IMG/VR virus record: IMGVR_UViG_3300033981_000791
Coordinates: 1-30,611 of that record
DNA: 30,611 nt
Reading direction: 5' to 3' (one strand)
Origin: a virus
Shown: piece after piece, positions 90 to 27,527 of the stretch
Position numbering within the stretch: the first letter of the stretch is position 1
How the letters are laid out: the number at the start of each line of letters is the position of its first letter
Translations under genes and position numbers: made by a program
The notes under the pieces: model-generated
Told to the model about the DNA's origin: nothing
The model's input: the letters and a program-made list of their open reading frames with translations, nothing else
The model's database searches: none

Positions 90-320
90 ATGGAAAAGCA
101 GAAAAGAGGTAGGAAACCAAAGCCTGCACATCTGAAAGTGCAAATGGTTACAGCCTACATTACAAAAGAGCAGAAAGACCTGATAAACAAAGAGTTCGGT
201 AACCTTACTAATGCTGTAAAAATTCACATTTTAAGCAAATTCAATGGACATCGTGATAGCTTTGGGCACTGGCAGCCGGTGGATGGACAACGAGCTGAGG
301 TATGCCCTAAGATCGATTGA
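90..320 (+). CDS. small basic DNA-binding-like protein
   Basis: A 76-residue protein read from the ATG at 90; a longer TTG start at 72 would run through the possible promoter box. The N-terminus is very basic (KQKRGRKPKPAH, with an AT-hook-like RGRKP). The next segment, KVQMVTAYITKEQKDLINK, looks like the strand-helix start of a ribbon-helix-helix fold, which suggests a DNA-binding regulator. The last 25 residues overlap the following gene in another frame by 77 bases. That is unusually long for this genome, so the C-terminus may not be conserved. The function is inferred from composition only. Confidence 0.5.
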   Translation: MEKQKRGRKPKPAHLKVQMVTAYITKEQKDLINKEFGNLTNAVKIHILSKFNGHRDSFGHWQPVDGQRAEVCPKID

Positions 321-933
321 ATCGTATCTTAAAGGGCACTCTGGCCGCATTCTACTAATAGGCGAAAAGCCTAAATGGATAAAGAATGTCGACTACTACG
401 ACATCTCAGATAAGCCGGGCCGCAAGAATTTTAGCATCTTTCAAAAGATACTGACTGGGTGCGAGATGTGTAATGGGGATGACTTTATTTTTTGGAATGA
501 TGACCACTTCTTACTTAAAGACCTAAAAGTTACAGATTTTAAGTATTGGTATGATGGCACTACGGTACAATACTTTCAAAAGGCTGTCGGACTTTATAAA
601 AAGGCTGTTGCAAACACAATGGCTCTGCCTAAAGTCAATGACCTTTATACAGATATTCATGTGCCCATCGTTTACAATAAGCATGAATTTGCCAAGCTCT
701 TAAATATAGACTGGTCAAAAGAGTACGTTATTAAAACTGCCTATACTCGGACTCAGGATGGTGGCTTTGAGTACATGGCAGACCTAAAACTCAATCAGCA
801 GTACAGCCTAAATCAATGGTATGGCAAGCTCCATGCCCGGACATTCTTTAGTATAGGGTCCTATGCGGTCAATGCTGACTTTAAGATACTTATGGAGAAA
901 CTATACCCAAGAAAATCACAATACGAGAAATGA
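244..933 (+). CDS. Stealth/GT-A-like glycosyltransferase
   Basis: A 229-residue protein probably transferring a sugar or sugar phosphate to a glycan. It opens with IVIALGTGSRWMDNELRYAL, the pattern of glycosyltransferase-like and Stealth-type proteins in which an N-terminal strand is followed by an LRYALRS helix. Residues 82-90 (IFWNDDHFL) hold an NDD acidic motif resembling the metal-binding DxD of GT-A enzymes and the NDD of Stealth region 2. The start at 244 is kept because the conserved opening begins there. The stop overlaps the next start as ATGA, indicating translational coupling. It is first of three glycosyltransferase-like genes in a row. The donor and acceptor cannot be told from sequence. 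Confidence 0.65.
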   Translation: MDIVIALGTGSRWMDNELRYALRSIESYLKGHSGRILLIGEKPKWIKNVDYYDISDKPGRKNFSIFQKILTGCEMCNGDDFIFWNDDHFLLKDLKVTDFKYWYDGTTVQYFQKAVGLYKKAVANTMALPKVNDLYTDIHVPIVYNKHEFAKLLNIDWSKEYVIKTAYTRTQDGGFEYMADLKLNQQYSLNQWYGKLHARTFFSIGSYAVNADFKILMEKLYPRKSQYEK

Positions 934-1901
934 GAATCTTTATCCAAAGCCCAAACATCAATAGCCGACATGGAGGCATCAGAGTCATCAATGAGTGGGC
1001 TAACAGGTTAGAAGGCTTTGGGCATAAGGTTATACTTTACAACCAAGCCGGTCCAGTAAGATGCGACTGGATGACTATAACTTGTAAGATTGTAAATACT
1101 ACTAATCTATTGGCAAATTCTGATTTGCTAATAGTAACCAGCCCACATGGGGCAAGCCTATTAAGTAAAGACAAGCCTTATAAGAAAGTAGTCTTTTTGC
1201 AGATGTTGGAGCATCTCTTTAACATCACTAACAAGGCATTTTTTGATAGTTGCTTTACTCTATACTCTACCAAATATCCTCTTATCTCTATAAGCCAGTG
1301 GAATATTAGGATTTTACAAAACACATATAAAAGAACAGGACCGACATTTTATGTAGGTAATGGAGTAAATCTAAATGACTTCCCGATAAGCCATAAACCC
1401 AAAGAGGGAAAGATAGCTTTATTAGAATCGCCTGAGCCTACTAACATGGCTAAAGACACCGAAAAGATAGCAGTACAAGTAGCAAAAAACCTAATAGAGA
1501 AAGGCTGGACAATAAAAGGCTTTGGTTTACAAGCAGCCAAAGACAATATCTATACAGAATACTTTACTAAGCCAAGCCTAGAAACCATGAATCGTTTATA
1601 CGATGAGGCAACAATCATGATAAAGGCTACCAAGTACGATGCAAGATCAACAGCTCCTATGGAAGCTGGCACAAAAGGAACTGTAACCATTCGGGGCATA
1701 ATAGAAGGGGATGATGACCTAAATGATAGCAATAGCTTTAAGACTGGCTACTCTTATGACAAGTTATTTGATGCCACCATGTTTGCAATAAATAACCCAG
1801 AGCAATTAAAGCAACGGTCTGACAATATTAAAGCCCATGTGCAGACTTATACTTGGGATTACTGGATGTATAAAATTAATCAAATCTTATGCAGCTTATA
1901 G
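930..1901 (+). CDS. GT-B glycosyltransferase, family 4-like
   Basis: A 323-residue glycosyltransferase of the GT-B fold. It has the glycine loop near the N-terminus (HGGIRVINEWANRL, residues 14-27), a GNGVNLNDF segment at 143-151 equivalent to the NGVDxxxF of family 4 enzymes, and PMEAGTKGT at 243-251, which matches the donor-binding E-x-x-x-x-G-T region where the nucleotide sugar sits. It is shorter than typical family 4 enzymes (about 350-400 residues), with a compact N-terminal domain. It is coupled to the upstream gene by ATGA and overlaps the next by 13 bases. It probably adds a sugar to the same glycan as its neighbours. Confidence 0.75.
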   Translation: MRIFIQSPNINSRHGGIRVINEWANRLEGFGHKVILYNQAGPVRCDWMTITCKIVNTTNLLANSDLLIVTSPHGASLLSKDKPYKKVVFLQMLEHLFNITNKAFFDSCFTLYSTKYPLISISQWNIRILQNTYKRTGPTFYVGNGVNLNDFPISHKPKEGKIALLESPEPTNMAKDTEKIAVQVAKNLIEKGWTIKGFGLQAAKDNIYTEYFTKPSLETMNRLYDEATIMIKATKYDARSTAPMEAGTKGTVTIRGIIEGDDDLNDSNSFKTGYSYDKLFDATMFAINNPEQLKQRSDNIKAHVQTYTWDYWMYKINQILCSL

Positions 1902-2329
1902 TTGGATGCGGTCCTAACTGGCCTAAAAGAGAAAATGACATCTTTCTTGATTGTCGCAAATTTGACAATGTCGATGTGGTTCATGACCTAAATTTAACCC
2001 CTTGGCCTTTCAAAGATAACAGCATGACAGAGATATCTGCTATTCATGTGGTGGAGCATCTTAATAGTTTATTGGACTTTATGAATGAGAGCTGGAGAAT
2101 ATTAAAAAAAGGTGGAGCCCTATACATAGAAACTCCCGAAGCCGGGGCAAATGTTGACCTCCAATTTGCTGATCCTACACACATAAGATGTTATCGGAAG
2201 CATACCTTTATAAATTACTTTACTTTATCTGAGGCTCCTAAATTTGGTTACACAGACAAATATTGGGCTATAATGCACTTAGAAACTAAAGATGGCAATA
2301 TAATCGCACACCTAACACCATTAAAATGA
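1889..2329 (+). CDS. SAM-dependent methyltransferase, class I (type 11-like)
   Basis: A 146-residue compact methyltransferase. The chain starts directly at SAM-binding motif I (LIVGCGPN, residues 3-10), continues through a VDVVHDLNLTPWPF segment and has the HVVEHL helix and RILKKGGALYIETPE strand of type 11 methyltransferases. About 60-80 residues that usually precede motif I are absent, so it is a minimal version. The substrate is unknown; between glycosyltransferases a sugar or lipid-linked glycan is plausible. It overlaps the genes on both sides, consistent with one operon. Confidence 0.7.
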   Translation: MQLIVGCGPNWPKRENDIFLDCRKFDNVDVVHDLNLTPWPFKDNSMTEISAIHVVEHLNSLLDFMNESWRILKKGGALYIETPEAGANVDLQFADPTHIRCYRKHTFINYFTLSEAPKFGYTDKYWAIMHLETKDGNIIAHLTPLK

Positions 2330-2934
2330 GAATACTAATAGTCGTATTAGAGTACTTAGAGCCGGATTGGTTGCAGACCTTAAAGTGTGTGCAAGACACT
2401 GGCCTACCTTATGAGATTGTCAGCCGGGATGGAGTAGGCAATATGTCGAGGGCTTACAATTCTATCATAAATAAAGAGGCCGACTATTACTGGTTTGTCT
2501 CAAATGTTACTTTCAGCCCTCAGATGCCTTATATGCTGGCAATGGCTTGCGAGGAGAGGGGCTGGGCTGGCATCCATCCGGCAATGCGGTCATCAGATCA
2601 CAAATTCCAATGGCCTAATGGTAACGAACCTAAAGAGACCCCATTTATCGAATGGACTGCTCCTATGGTTAATGCAGAGATATTTAGGGATAATCTCTTA
2701 GATGAGATGCTACCATACTACTACATGGACTTGGATTGGTGTCATAGGGTCAAGCCTAATAAGGTAGGGGTGCATCATGGTCAGGTAGTAGAGCATACTT
2801 ATTTAAGAAACAAGCAAGAGCATCCCATCGGGCAACTAAGAAAGCAACTAAGGAACTACTGGACCCCTATCAGTCAAAGACATATGATCCAGAAATACGG
2901 AAAGGATTGGCAACAAAAACTATGGCCTAAATAA
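2326..2934 (+). CDS. family 2-like glycosyltransferase, degenerate DxD
   Basis: A 202-residue GT-A-like protein. The N-terminal strand MRILIVVLEYLEPDWL, the GVGNMSRAYNSII segment (37-49) and MDLDWCHR (134-141) match the order of elements in family 2 transferases, in which the last corresponds to the D-x-D-W/L-C-x-R motif near the catalytic base. The place where the metal-binding NND/DxD normally sits reads WFVSNVTF (56-63), without acidic residues. It may use another metal ligand or be inactive. It is ATGA-coupled to the preceding methyltransferase. Confidence 0.6.
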   Translation: MRILIVVLEYLEPDWLQTLKCVQDTGLPYEIVSRDGVGNMSRAYNSIINKEADYYWFVSNVTFSPQMPYMLAMACEERGWAGIHPAMRSSDHKFQWPNGNEPKETPFIEWTAPMVNAEIFRDNLLDEMLPYYYMDLDWCHRVKPNKVGVHHGQVVEHTYLRNKQEHPIGQLRKQLRNYWTPISQRHMIQKYGKDWQQKLWPK

Positions 2935-2939
2935 AAACT

Positions 2940-3560
2940 ATGACAACTTTAGAACTACATGGAATTTACCATGAATTAAACTTCTGGCAAGGATTTGTAA
3001 AAACCGACCGATTCTTAAAGGGTTGGGTAGGTAAGGGCAAGACCCCAGAATTAAACCAAGAGGTAGCAGACTTTATCAAAAGTGTTCCACATGAATCCGT
3101 TTTGGATGTGGGATCAGGGGTTTGCTCAATTCTTAATGGATTAGTCAATGTAACCCCTTGCGATCCATTGGGAGACCTCTACAAGCTCGTTTTTGACTTT
3201 GAGAGACATAAACTAAAAGCCCCACTACCAATACCAGCCGAGGAGTTAAACTTTAAGAATGAGTTTGACATAGTACATATCTCAAATGCTCTGGATCATA
3301 CCCAAGAACCAAGAAAGGCCTTAGACTACCTTTTACAAGCGGTCAAGCCCGGTGGGTATCTAATAGTCCAAGGTTTTTTTAATGAGGCGACACATGAGAA
3401 CTGGCAAGGCTTCCATCAGTGGGATATATCTTTAGATGACTATGGCTGCATGGTTATTTTAGGCAAAAACTCCCAGACTATAATTGCATGGCCTGCTCAT
3501 AAATTCTCTACGGTTAACCTATTGGGCAGAGATTGGTATTATTGGATCATAAAAAAGTAA
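2940..3560 (+). CDS. SAM-dependent methyltransferase, class I
   Basis: A 206-residue methyltransferase with SAM motif I VLDVGSG at 54-60, an acidic FDIVHISNALDH segment at 109-120 and a canonical post-motif strand AVKPGGYLIVQG at 134-145. About 50 residues precede motif I, as is usual. The FHQWDISLDD stretch resembles type 11 enzymes acting on small molecules or glycans. It starts five bases after the upstream stop. Its TAA shares an A with the ATG of the DNA methyltransferase. The substrate is not predictable, but it belongs to the glycan cassette by position. Confidence 0.7.
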   Translation: MTTLELHGIYHELNFWQGFVKTDRFLKGWVGKGKTPELNQEVADFIKSVPHESVLDVGSGVCSILNGLVNVTPCDPLGDLYKLVFDFERHKLKAPLPIPAEELNFKNEFDIVHISNALDHTQEPRKALDYLLQAVKPGGYLIVQGFFNEATHENWQGFHQWDISLDDYGCMVILGKNSQTIIAWPAHKFSTVNLLGRDWYYWIIKK

Positions 3561-4195
3561 TGGAAAGCATAGTAAAAAATATAGATTGTATGGTCGGGAT
3601 GGCTGAATATCCTGATAATTATTTTGATTTAGCGGTTGTCGATCCACCTTATGGAATAGAAGAATTAACTGGAAAAGAAAGTGCAAATAATAGAGGACAA
3701 TTGAAAGAGAAAAGAATATATGGGTTACAAAGCGATAAATTCAAAGAATGGGATAAAGCACCTGATAATTTTTATTTTGTAGAATTATTTAGGGTTAGTA
3801 AAAATCAAATAATTTGGGGAGGTAATTATTTTAATTTGCCAAAATATAGATGCCCGATAATTTGGGATAAATGTCAACCTTGGGAAAATTTTAGTCAAGT
3901 AGAATTAGCTTGGTCATCTTTTAACAAACCAGCATCTATAATTAAAATTGATAATAGGACTGGCGATAAAATACACCCAACACAGAAACCAACAAAACTT
4001 TATGATTGGATTTATACTAAATACTTACTAAAGGGTGGTAAGGTATTAGATACCCATTTAGGTTCTGGTAGTAATAGAATAGCAGCGGATAAAGCTGGAA
4101 ATATTGATTTTGTAGGGTTTGAATTAGATAAAGATTATTTTGAAGCACAAGAAAAAAGGTGGGAAGAATATAAAAAACAGTTGACATTATGGTAA
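3560..4195 (+). CDS. DNA methyltransferase, DPPY type (N6-adenine or N4-cytosine)
   Basis: A 211-residue DNA methyltransferase. Catalytic motif IV DPPY is at 28-31 (LAVVDPPYG) and SAM motif I is near the C-terminus (VLDTHLGSGSNRIA, 162-175), followed by FVGFELDKDYFEAQ. This order, DPPY first then motif I, is that of the beta-type amino-methyltransferases common in phages. The ATG at 3560 is preferred over a TTG at 3533 that lies inside the upstream gene. Base composition is unlike its neighbours: sampled 60-base lines are about 25-30% G+C against about 42% in the terminase genes, pointing to later acquisition. It probably protects phage DNA from host nucleases or marks it. Confidence 0.85.
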   Translation: MESIVKNIDCMVGMAEYPDNYFDLAVVDPPYGIEELTGKESANNRGQLKEKRIYGLQSDKFKEWDKAPDNFYFVELFRVSKNQIIWGGNYFNLPKYRCPIIWDKCQPWENFSQVELAWSSFNKPASIIKIDNRTGDKIHPTQKPTKLYDWIYTKYLLKGGKVLDTHLGSGSNRIAADKAGNIDFVGFELDKDYFEAQEKRWEEYKKQLTLW

Positions 4196-4620
4196 TTTGC
4201 TGCGATATAGATGGGTGCCTAACAGATGGCAAAATCTGGGTTGACCACAAAGGCAACATCATAAAGTCATTCAATAACAAGGACATTGGAGCCATCAAAG
4301 AGCTAATCTCTATGGGATATCAGGTACATTTAGTAACTGCATCTAGTTGGACGGGAGCCGAGCAATACCTCAAAAGGTCTGGGGCTGAGTTACATATAAT
4401 CAGAAACAAAGAGACCATTCCTTTTGACTACCAGATAGCCATAGGAGACTCAGCATGGGATATACCTATGCTCTGTAAGGCAAAACACTTATTCTGCCCA
4501 GCAGATGCCTCCTTAGAGGTAAAATGTCTAGATGGGGTGCATCCACTACAAACACTCGGTGGTCAAGGAATCATGCTAGAGTTAGTACGCATCCTATCTA
4601 ACTGGTCAAGTAATGCTTGA
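4189..4620 (+). CDS. HAD-family phosphatase, KdsC-like
   Basis: A 143-residue HAD hydrolase resembling 3-deoxy-D-manno-octulosonate 8-phosphate phosphatase (KdsC) and related sugar-acid phosphatases. Motif I is DIDGCLTDG (6-14) with nucleophile Asp6 and acid/base Asp8; the LTDG ending is typical of the KdsC group. Motif II is the Thr of HLVTASS (Thr50), motif III Lys74 and motif IV GDSAWD (86-91). KdsC proteins act in KDO and sialic-acid-like sugar synthesis, so this gene fits a glycan role. It overlaps the DNA methyltransferase by seven bases and is last before the terminator at 4712. The exact substrate is inferred. Confidence 0.75.
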   Translation: MVICCDIDGCLTDGKIWVDHKGNIIKSFNNKDIGAIKELISMGYQVHLVTASSWTGAEQYLKRSGAELHIIRNKETIPFDYQIAIGDSAWDIPMLCKAKHLFCPADASLEVKCLDGVHPLQTLGGQGIMLELVRILSNWSSNA

Positions 4621-26055: not shown

Positions 26056-26468
26056 TTTATTTTGCCTAAATGGTCCACAAATAAGATATCTGAGTAAGAC
26101 CGGACCCTTGTCATCCGCATAGATATCTCCAAATCACTTGCTAAGTCTATGACTTTCAAATAATAAGGAAAAAATTTAGGGTCCTCTGTTTCAATATAAC
26201 TTTCTATTCTAGACCTATAAGTACTCATGGTGGAATGGTCCTTATATCCTACTAATGGGGCTATCTCGGTTAGCTTCATTGGGCAATGGCGATAGATAAA
26301 GTACGATAAAGCCATTCTAATCTCAGCTATCCTAACAACATTGCCATTTTGATCCTTGCATATCTTAAAGTGATTGCGGCCCCTAATGCTTTGCAATTGC
26401 TGTAAGGTTATGCCGTAAAAATCACATGCTGCCTGGACTAGTTGAATCGCTTGCTCTCTGGTGTTCAT
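26043..26468 (-). CDS. DnaA domain IV-like DNA-binding protein
   Basis: A 141-residue protein whose second half matches the C-terminal DNA-binding domain of DnaA: RIAEIRMALSYFIYRHCPMK, LTEIAPLVGYKDHSTMSTY and RSRIESY, the last resembling the DnaA signature GGRDHSTVxxAxxKI. The first third (TREQAIQLVQAACDFYGIT) corresponds to the helix before it. The ATPase domains of DnaA are absent. It may bind DnaA boxes and direct or block the host initiator. It overlaps the C5 methyltransferase gene by 47 bases. Confidence 0.75.
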   Translation of the reverse strand: MNTREQAIQLVQAACDFYGITLQQLQSIRGRNHFKICKDQNGNVVRIAEIRMALSYFIYRHCPMKLTEIAPLVGYKDHSTMSTYRSRIESYIETEDPKFFPYYLKVIDLASDLEISMRMTRVRSYSDILFVDHLGKINLAV

Positions 26469-27336
26469 AAAGTTCTATGGTTTTGAATATTTGATAAACT
26501 ACTTGTGGTACTATTGCGTTTCCTCCTGCTTTGATTGATTCGCTTCGCCATTTAGAAAAGGTAATAGAGTCCAGTCGGTCGGAAAGCCCATCATCTCCAT
26601 TACAAATTGGGGAGACAGTTGGGAAGTTTTGCCATTGGTTTCTGCGTTCCACATTGCTATGTCCATCTGTCTTTTGCCTATTCTGTTGTTCCAATATTTC
26701 TCGCTGTGTCCGTGTTTGACTATTTGTGCAGTTGGAGTTGGTAGCATTCCCATTATTTGTGTCGCAAGATTCGGCATTGTTGTTCCGTTCGGATATTTCT
26801 TCATCCTCTGCTTGAACTTGTCCAAATCTTGTACTTCTTCCCTTGTTGTGGGAGTAAGCAACAAACCAGACTCTATCTCTTTTGTGCGGTGCGTTGACAC
26901 TGCAAGCTGGCAATACATACGGGAATACTTCGTACCCCTCAGCTTCCAGATTAGTTTGCACTTCGTGGAATACCAATCCCCCATTCCAATTAACAAGGCC
27001 GAGAACATTCTCGCCAATGACCCATCTGGGCTTAACTTCTCTAATGACTCTAAGCATTTCTGGCCAGAGATGGCGGTCATCTTCTTTGCCAAGTCGCTTG
27101 CCTGCCATTGAGTAGGGTTGGCATGGGAATCCTCCTGTGAGAACATCAATTTGGTTTGCATACTTAGTAAAATCTGATTTTGTTATGTCAGTAAATAGTT
27201 CTGATTCGGGCCAGTAGTATTTAAGGACTTTTTGACCAAACTCGTTCCATTCACAATGAAACTTATTCTCCCAGCCCATCCACTCAGCGGCAAGGTCAAA
27301 GCCACCAATCCCACTAAATAATGATCCATGTGTCAT
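26422..27336 (-). CDS. C5-cytosine DNA methyltransferase
   Basis: A 304-residue cytosine-5 methyltransferase. Motif I is SLFSGIGGFDLAAEW (5-19), the catalytic motif IV is GGFPCQPYS (68-76, nucleophile Cys72), motif VI is ENV in VIGENVLGL, motif VIII is APHKRDRVWF, and motif X is GGNAIVPQV near residue 271. Residues about 183-228 are low-complexity (rich in N, S, T, Q), where the target recognition domain is expected. It probably shields phage DNA from restriction. It is ATGA-coupled to the HTH gene before it and contains a second protein in the +1 frame. Confidence 0.92.
   Translation of the reverse strand: MTHGSLFSGIGGFDLAAEWMGWENKFHCEWNEFGQKVLKYYWPESELFTDITKSDFTKYANQIDVLTGGFPCQPYSMAGKRLGKEDDRHLWPEMLRVIREVKPRWVIGENVLGLVNWNGGLVFHEVQTNLEAEGYEVFPYVLPACSVNAPHKRDRVWFVAYSHNKGRSTRFGQVQAEDEEISERNNNAESCDTNNGNATNSNCTNSQTRTQREILEQQNRQKTDGHSNVERRNQWQNFPTVSPICNGDDGLSDRLDSITFSKWRSESIKAGGNAIVPQVVYQIFKTIELYEHQRASDSTSPGSM
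26511..27161 (-). CDS. overlapping +1-frame protein inside the methyltransferase gene
   Basis: A 216-residue open frame lying wholly inside the C5 methyltransferase, codons 59-276, shifted by one base on the same strand. It has organised, protein-like motifs: STKCKLIWKLRGTK (65-78), RTKEIESGLLLTPT (92-105), MLPTPTAQI (139-147) and QLSPQFVMEMMGFPTDW (181-197). LPTP repeats and the LSPxFVxxMMGFPxxW ending recur in proteins that accompany or overlap phage C5 methyltransferases, as I recall the family. In the methyltransferase frame much of this stretch is low-complexity. The start could be the ATG at 27161 or the ATG at residue 6. The function is unknown. Confidence 0.7.
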   Translation of the reverse strand: MQTKLMFSQEDSHANPTQWQASDLAKKMTAISGQKCLESLEKLSPDGSLARMFSALLIGMGDWYSTKCKLIWKLRGTKYSRMYCQLAVSTHRTKEIESGLLLTPTTREEVQDLDKFKQRMKKYPNGTTMPNLATQIMGMLPTPTAQIVKHGHSEKYWNNRIGKRQMDIAMWNAETNGKTSQLSPQFVMEMMGFPTDWTLLPFLNGEANQSKQEETQ

Positions 27337-27527
27337 TTGCTAAGTTTGTAAGCTGCAAAGGTTTTATTGTCTTTAGTGATGTAATTGGTCCAAATCGTGT
27401 GGCCTTGGTTTCTAAGGTCAGCAATTCTTGCGGCTAACCTAAAACAGCCAAACTTGTTTAAGGCATCAATGGCGGTAATTTGTTTGCCTGATTTAAGATA
27501 AATCAAGATTCTTTCTGTTTGTGTCAT
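27333..27527 (-). CDS. helix-turn-helix protein (HTH_39 type)
   Basis: A 64-residue protein matching small phage helix-turn-helix proteins: TQTERILIYLKSGKQITAID, ALNKFGCFRLAARIADLRN and a QGHTIWTNYI wing. In the HTH_39 type the second helix is followed by FRLAARIxDLR. It likely binds DNA as a regulator of the early block. It is ATGA-coupled to the C5 methyltransferase downstream. Confidence 0.8.
   Translation of the reverse strand: MTQTERILIYLKSGKQITAIDALNKFGCFRLAARIADLRNQGHTIWTNYITKDNKTFAAYKLSK

Follow-up and report, generated by a model that had tools for sequence, protein, structure and literature searches.

The tandem recognition domains of the C5-cytosine methyltransferases of some Bacillus phages sit between motifs VIII and IX, and the open reading frame (ORF) of the small subunit of M.EcoHK31I lies inside that of the large subunit, in another frame. 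Several tandem recognition domains are found in the C5 enzymes of the Bacillus phages SPR, SPbeta, phi3T, rho11, and H2 (PMC12707154, PMC8936443). In M.EcoHK31I (Lee, Kam and Shaw 1995), only motif IX is on the small subunit, and the predicted recognition domain was placed on the large subunit (PMC3404938). M.AquI is also a C5 enzyme made of two polypeptides; its split falls in the variable region, and the small subunit has both motif IX and motif X (PMC3404938).

In the present study, we analysed a 30,611-nucleotide stretch of viral DNA (positions 1 to 30,611 of the IMG/VR record IMGVR_UViG_3300033981_000791; hereafter, the window), in which a C5 methyltransferase gene contains a second long ORF in the +1 frame of the same strand. 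Our reading, to which we assign a probability of about 0.8, is that the two ORFs encode the halves of one dual-coded, two-subunit enzyme: alpha, with motifs I-VIII and X, and beta, with an array of recognition cassettes and motif IX, where the assembly of the two and the targets of the cassettes are the conjectural parts. Sequence comparisons show the dual coding, the switch of constraint between frames, the lack of motif IX in alpha, the identity of beta as the missing half, and the exchange of cassettes. As the relatives of the window were found in viral contigs and mostly in Bacteroidota genomes, the window is most likely derived from a Bacteroidota phage.

The arrangement resembles M.EcoHK31I in that alpha has motifs I-VIII and X and an IX-like segment is on beta, although motif IX was assigned here by position and pattern, with a weak profile match. 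It differs, as judged from the published description of M.EcoHK31I, in that beta also bears a variable array of 1-5 cassettes, and in that the alpha/beta family is phage-borne and widespread. Recognition is on beta in our reading but on the large subunit in the published view, which counts against our reading. The Bacillus phage enzymes are single chains in one frame, whereas the array here is in another frame and has been exchanged between near-identical phages. The split of M.AquI resembles two-gene forms that we found in actinophages, whereas the window keeps motif X on alpha. The literature that we searched, with most subscription journals outside our reach, contained no analysis of the overlap, of the role of the beta subunit, or of the cassettes. 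Motif IX on a small second polypeptide was already known, with M.EcoHK31I as the precedent. What is new here is the location of recognition cassettes on an embedded subunit, the swapping of these cassettes among near-identical phages, the measured switch of frame, the wide distribution of the family, and its single-chain and two-gene relatives.

The first-pass annotation of the window, made from the sequence alone, had described a methyltransferase ORF at 27336..26422 and a +1 ORF of 216 amino acid residues at 27161..26511, both on the minus strand. Both were found exactly there, with the motifs of beta in the reported order (LLLTPT, MLPTPT, LSPQFVMEMMGFPTDW). The features of the locus are as follows.

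27333..27527, minus strand: HTH_39 gene upstream of alpha, whose stop overlaps the alpha start (ATGA; Pfam, 4.5e-14)
26422..27336, minus strand: alpha, catalytic subunit of a C5-cytosine methyltransferase, 304 aa (PF00145, 9.8e-48, residues 2-243)
26848..27336, minus strand: alpha residues 1-163, motifs I-VIII (PCQ, ENV, RxR region; PDB sequence match to M.HhaI; AF2 pLDDT mostly >80)
26608..26838, minus strand: alpha residues 167-243, low-complexity linker rich in N/S/T/Q, predicted to be disordered, under the beta cassette array (AF2 pLDDT <50)
26506..26526, minus strand: alpha residues 271-277, motif X, GGNAIVP (G272, N273, and P277 invariant in the alignment)
26511..27161, minus strand: beta, 216-aa subunit in the +1 frame, starting inside alpha at codon 59 (phrog_1008, 5.6e-20)
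26862..27161, minus strand: beta residues 1-100, N-terminal part, conserved and overlapping alpha motifs IV-VIII (alignments)
26745..26861, minus strand: beta residues 101-139, cassette 1, LLTPTTREEV..., family 5 (cassette clustering)
26619..26744, minus strand: beta residues 140-181, cassette 2, LPTPTAQIVK..., family 3 (cassette clustering)
26568..26618, minus strand: beta residues 182-198, motif-IX-like segment LSPQFVMEMMGFPTDWT (invariant residues; motif X comes next in actinophage homologues)

Among the PHROG profiles, alpha matched phrog_363 (2.7e-69). Searches of beta against Pfam, NCBIfam, and PDB sequences gave no match; the comparison with phage proteins that the first-pass annotation had proposed did place it in a phage family, the phrog_1008 noted above. 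In the alignment of relatives, L182, V187, M191, G192, F193, and P194 of beta are invariant. The segment GDDGLSDRLD of alpha and MEMMGFPTDW of beta are read from the same bases, one letter apart.

Alpha had been called a canonical C5 methyltransferase. This description is right for motifs I, IV (PCQ), VI (ENV), VIII, and X, which are present in this member of PF00145, but not for the remainder: neither motif IX nor a recognition domain was found in the alpha chain, and residues 167-243 are disordered in the model. The PDB sequence match to M.HhaI covered residues 5-163 only, and Foldseek matched the alpha model to M.HhaI across about 163 columns. The AF2 model has a confident catalytic domain, and pLDDT falls below 50 at residues 167-243. 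No in-frame motif IX was found in the alphas of the 17 PF00145 loci with beta, while LQ/IQ[GS]F[PS] was present in 9 of 12 complete PF00145 enzymes without beta. The locus L193 has IQTFP.

We then compared substitution rates by codon position, using 35 independent pairs of relatives. In the alpha frame, third-position rates divided by first-position rates gave 3.49 [2.95-4.30] before the overlap, 1.83 [1.68-1.99] over the catalytic motifs overlapped by beta, and 0.78 [0.65-0.92] over the motif-IX-like end of beta; a larger set of relatives also showed constraint alternating between the frames. In the middle of the gene, the value calculated from aligned cassettes was about 0.23. The third-position rate of alpha fell from 0.280 to 0.203 on entering the overlap with beta residues 1-100. 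When cassettes of the same family were aligned, change at beta positions 1, 2, and 3 was 0.134, 0.084, and 0.360, which is the pattern of a gene read in the beta frame, and residues differed by 15.7% in the beta frame compared with 44% in the alpha frame. None of 476 cassettes contained an alpha-frame stop, and 14.5% would be expected to be stop-free by chance. These rates show that, along the gene, selection shifts from the alpha frame to the beta frame and then returns to alpha; alpha in mid-gene is mainly required to remain open, and selection there acts on beta. The proposal of the first-pass annotation that constraint alternates between two coding frames is thus borne out by the codon-phase data, which do not show preservation of the alpha frame alone. 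Its remark that the +1 frame looks more protein-like where alpha is of low complexity also holds, since the cassettes change in the manner of a protein only in the beta frame.

For the wider distribution, the alpha query was limited to motifs I-VIII, so that loci were not chosen on beta. In this search, beta was present in the +1 frame of all 80 near alphas and of 82 of 83 distant alphas; the loci kept were the best matches, and the result describes the alpha family rather than all C5 enzymes. The lone distant exception was a second, different methyltransferase cut by the end of the locus. A viral search with beta gave 237 relatives, and each of the best 80 overlapped an alpha homologue in its +1 frame. 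In a survey of 396 Bacteroidota genomes, beta was found in three, including the genome used as the survey centre; such scarcity in genomes is what would be expected if the genes belong to phages or prophages.

Several single loci may be mentioned here. A bacterial contig (L188:1278-2417) contains a very distant alpha/beta pair, again in the +1 frame and with the beta end ALNPGLSRWLQGYPLTWC; the arrangement extends beyond the analysed sets. In a Paludibacter metagenome-assembled genome (L111:2536-3752), the start of alpha is in frame with beta, and the remaining alpha is in another frame, either by a natural frame change or by an assembly error. A marine phage record (KT997847, L086:2294-3219) shows only a truncated alpha followed by a +1 ORF named 'cytosine-specific methyltransferase', and its frames look shifted near the beta start.

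To separate conservation of beta from what alpha forces, synonymous codons of alpha were shuffled with the alpha protein and its codon use kept, and the +1 frame was scored with a beta model built only from distant phages. A +1 run of the length of beta survived in 0.2% of 500 shuffles. The beta of the window scored 172 bits, compared with a mean of 66 and a maximum of 99 for the shuffles, so none of the 500 reached the real score. The real beta exceeded every shuffle in all 17 loci studied in this way.

Relatives of the pair with other gene organisations were found in actinophages. In Gordonia phage Jabberwocky, gp4 is a single chain with motifs I-VIII, four LPTP blocks, an IX-like segment (RLNAAFAEWMM...), and then motif X; it matched the alpha profile at 5.7e-40, and also phrog_363, phrog_116, and phrog_1008. 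In Streptomyces phage Samy, the halves are the adjacent genes 49 and 50, about 60 bases apart, and the second (SAMYPH_50) has 7 and 5 stops in its other two frames. In Mycobacterium phages Rebeuca (genes 80/79) and Shida (6/5), motifs I-VIII are in the first gene, and the LPTP blocks, the IX-like segment, and motif X are in the second (gp79 and gp5, respectively), which is in the +1 frame and partially overlaps the preceding gene. Eight LPTP blocks are present in gp83 of Arthrobacter phage Colucci. The beta models matched actinophage proteins at 2e-7 to 3e-17, with no match from reversed controls, and phrog_1008 matched the proteins outside the overlap (Samy, Rebeuca, Shida, and Colucci) at 3e-49 to 2e-91. 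In these homologues, the beta IX-like segment precedes motif X in frame. The single-chain and two-gene forms, together with the matches of the beta models to them, indicate that beta, read in a different frame, is the half of a C5 methyltransferase that bears target recognition and motif IX. Direct comparison is consistent with this assignment at a level below significance: when beta was aligned with canonical C5 enzymes by hhalign, motif IX fell on motif IX with P of 0.06 and 0.08. The AF2 model of beta was poor (pLDDT 59, pTM 0.26). What the first-pass annotation missed is that the two proteins depend on each other as the halves of a single enzyme, and that the swappable recognition-cassette array of beta is encoded over the low-complexity stretch of alpha.

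In Sphingobacterium phlebotomi (L132:2784-4819), two divergent beta-like genes of 200 and 159 aa stand free downstream of an overlapping alpha/beta pair and have 13 and 15 stops in the alpha frame. They may be additional specificity subunits that serve the one catalytic subunit. A free-standing Sphingobacterium beta used as the query in a viral search had no close relatives.

After the first 100 residues, beta consists of 1-5 blocks with a median of 41 aa (middle half 36-44), each of which opens with LPTP or a near variant, followed by LSPQFVMEMMGFP. The 476 blocks from 178 betas fell into 157 families at 55% identity and occur in many combinations. Strings of blocks differed in 123 of 140 pairs of loci that are at least 88% identical in alpha catalytic DNA, and phages 90-99% identical around the gene have different cassette sets. 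On the other hand, a given block can show 98-100% identity in two phages whose alphas are just 71-79% identical, and the DNA of cassette 2 of the window is 89-90% identical to its counterparts in phages whose alphas match at only 69-70%. Loci L050 and L056 are 94.7% identical ahead of the blocks and 99.7% identical beyond them, and between these parts 207 bases of one locus are replaced by 339 of the other; similar replacement of blocks was seen in L037/L059 and L032/L051. In a published study that compared sibling E. coli phages, the 'Mte8-like' protein was listed among nine divergent genes (PMC5582158).

Tandem modules of about 40 aa thus occur in cis between motifs VIII and IX in Jabberwocky gp4, and in the other frame in beta, and the modules are probably recognition modules. 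When cassette heads were compared with canonical recognition domains, 11 of 14 best matches fell in the VIII-IX interval (7.0 +/- 1.3 for shuffled heads); an example is SHTLSASDWRG in SPbetaL6. This resemblance is only suggestive, and beta profiles had no significant match to the SPbetaL6 methyltransferase.

The beta of the window starts with ATG at alpha codon 59. No Shine-Dalgarno sequence was found for it, as is expected in Bacteroidota. In distant relatives, a Shine-Dalgarno sequence with a start codon for beta was present near the conserved N-terminus in 56 of 80 loci, compared with 22 of 160 in the other two frames, and this excess favours internal initiation. The internal gene has already been annotated in Paenibacillus phage Shelly (gp56, 'g55 internal gene') and in the E. 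coli phages K1G (gp35) and fTaEco01 ('Mte8-like'). These proteins, as well as phrog_1008, named 'DNA methyltransferase', belong to the same family as beta, with the nested gene annotated in individual genomes. The name 'Mte8-like', given to the fTaEco01 homologue, is only a hint of homology to the EcoHK31I subunits. In a Porphyromonas phage record beta alone is annotated, and in several others alpha alone; gene callers retain one frame of the pair and lose the other.

We propose that alpha, translated from the full ORF, supplies the catalytic domain and motif X, and that beta, from the internal +1 start, would supply the missing middle, namely the cassette array followed by motif IX. The two would assemble into one enzyme, in which alpha over the cassettes is just a stop-free linker, predicted to be disordered. 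Each LPTP cassette of about 41 aa most likely reads one DNA target; the tandem domains of the Bacillus phages, the place of the blocks in the single chain, where VIII and IX flank them, and the modest resemblance of the block heads to canonical recognition domains point to this role. Cassette exchange would then change the host restriction enzymes from which the phage genome is protected. The arrangement probably originated from a single-chain enzyme by two compensating frame changes, one after motif VIII and the other between IX and X, which put recognition and IX in the +1 frame and returned X to the alpha frame. We also consider it probable, with somewhat less confidence than the two-subunit reading itself, that phages of several bacterial phyla carry an out-of-frame recognition subunit of exchangeable cassettes inside its catalytic partner, in which the overlapping stretch has become a filler linker, such that one recombination could re-target the methyltransferase with both proteins left intact.

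Among the alternatives, a programmed ribosomal frameshift, by which the +1 cassettes and motif IX would be fused to motifs I-VIII in a product made alongside alpha, with no internal initiation of beta, has the most in its favour, as Jabberwocky gp4 has exactly this order and the cassettes begin right after motif VIII. We regard it as unlikely, however, because about 100 codons of open, conserved +1 frame come ahead of the cassettes, because the ribosome sites of distant relatives lie in that stretch, and because annotators of the Paenibacillus and E. coli phages call a separate internal gene. Beta could also be an accessory protein, such as an anti-restriction factor or a regulator, which merely shares the gene. 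Such a role would fit a protein that alone has neither a Pfam domain nor a confident fold, but it becomes quite improbable when cassettes and an IX-like segment are found in frame between VIII and X in a single-chain methyltransferase and ahead of X in the two-gene forms, and when alpha lacks exactly the part that beta carries.

Least probable of all, in our view, is that beta is only a by-product, with conservation in the +1 frame imposed by the conserved alpha protein and beta itself never made. Some resemblance is indeed forced: synonymous shuffles still average 24-66 bits against the beta model, and the motif-IX reading of beta and DG..DRLD of alpha are the same bases, one letter apart. 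The real beta is nevertheless above all shuffles at every locus scored, only the beta frame behaves as a protein within the cassettes, and beta has its own ribosome sites in distant relatives. Nor would a by-product have homologues free of an overlapping alpha. The first-pass annotation had named the lack of homologues outside methyltransferase overlaps as evidence against its proposal, and such homologues exist in Samy, Rebeuca, Shida, Colucci, Jabberwocky, and Sphingobacterium.

Long same-strand overlaps in which both proteins have a known job and constraint visibly switches frame are rare. The present pair is widespread, its single-chain and two-gene relatives show how such an overlap may have arisen, and it occurs in tractable E. 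coli phages. If the cassettes read separate targets, phage sequence could predict the restriction systems evaded, and the cassettes would offer a collection of recognition modules ready for use.

Other ORFs adjoin or overlap the pair in the window. The end of alpha, at 26422-26468, overlaps the start of a downstream gene, whose match to the DnaA C-terminal domain is weak (2.5e-5, under the Pfam cut-off). An antisense ORF of 160 codons (26629-27111, plus strand) also overlaps the pair; in relatives with full-length alpha, the antisense frames have at least three stops each. Upstream of the terminase, positions 244-4620 (plus strand) hold a block of sugar- or methyl-transfer-like genes, together with an N6_N4 DNA methylase match at 3533-4195 (1.1e-9) and a HAD hydrolase at 4189-4620.
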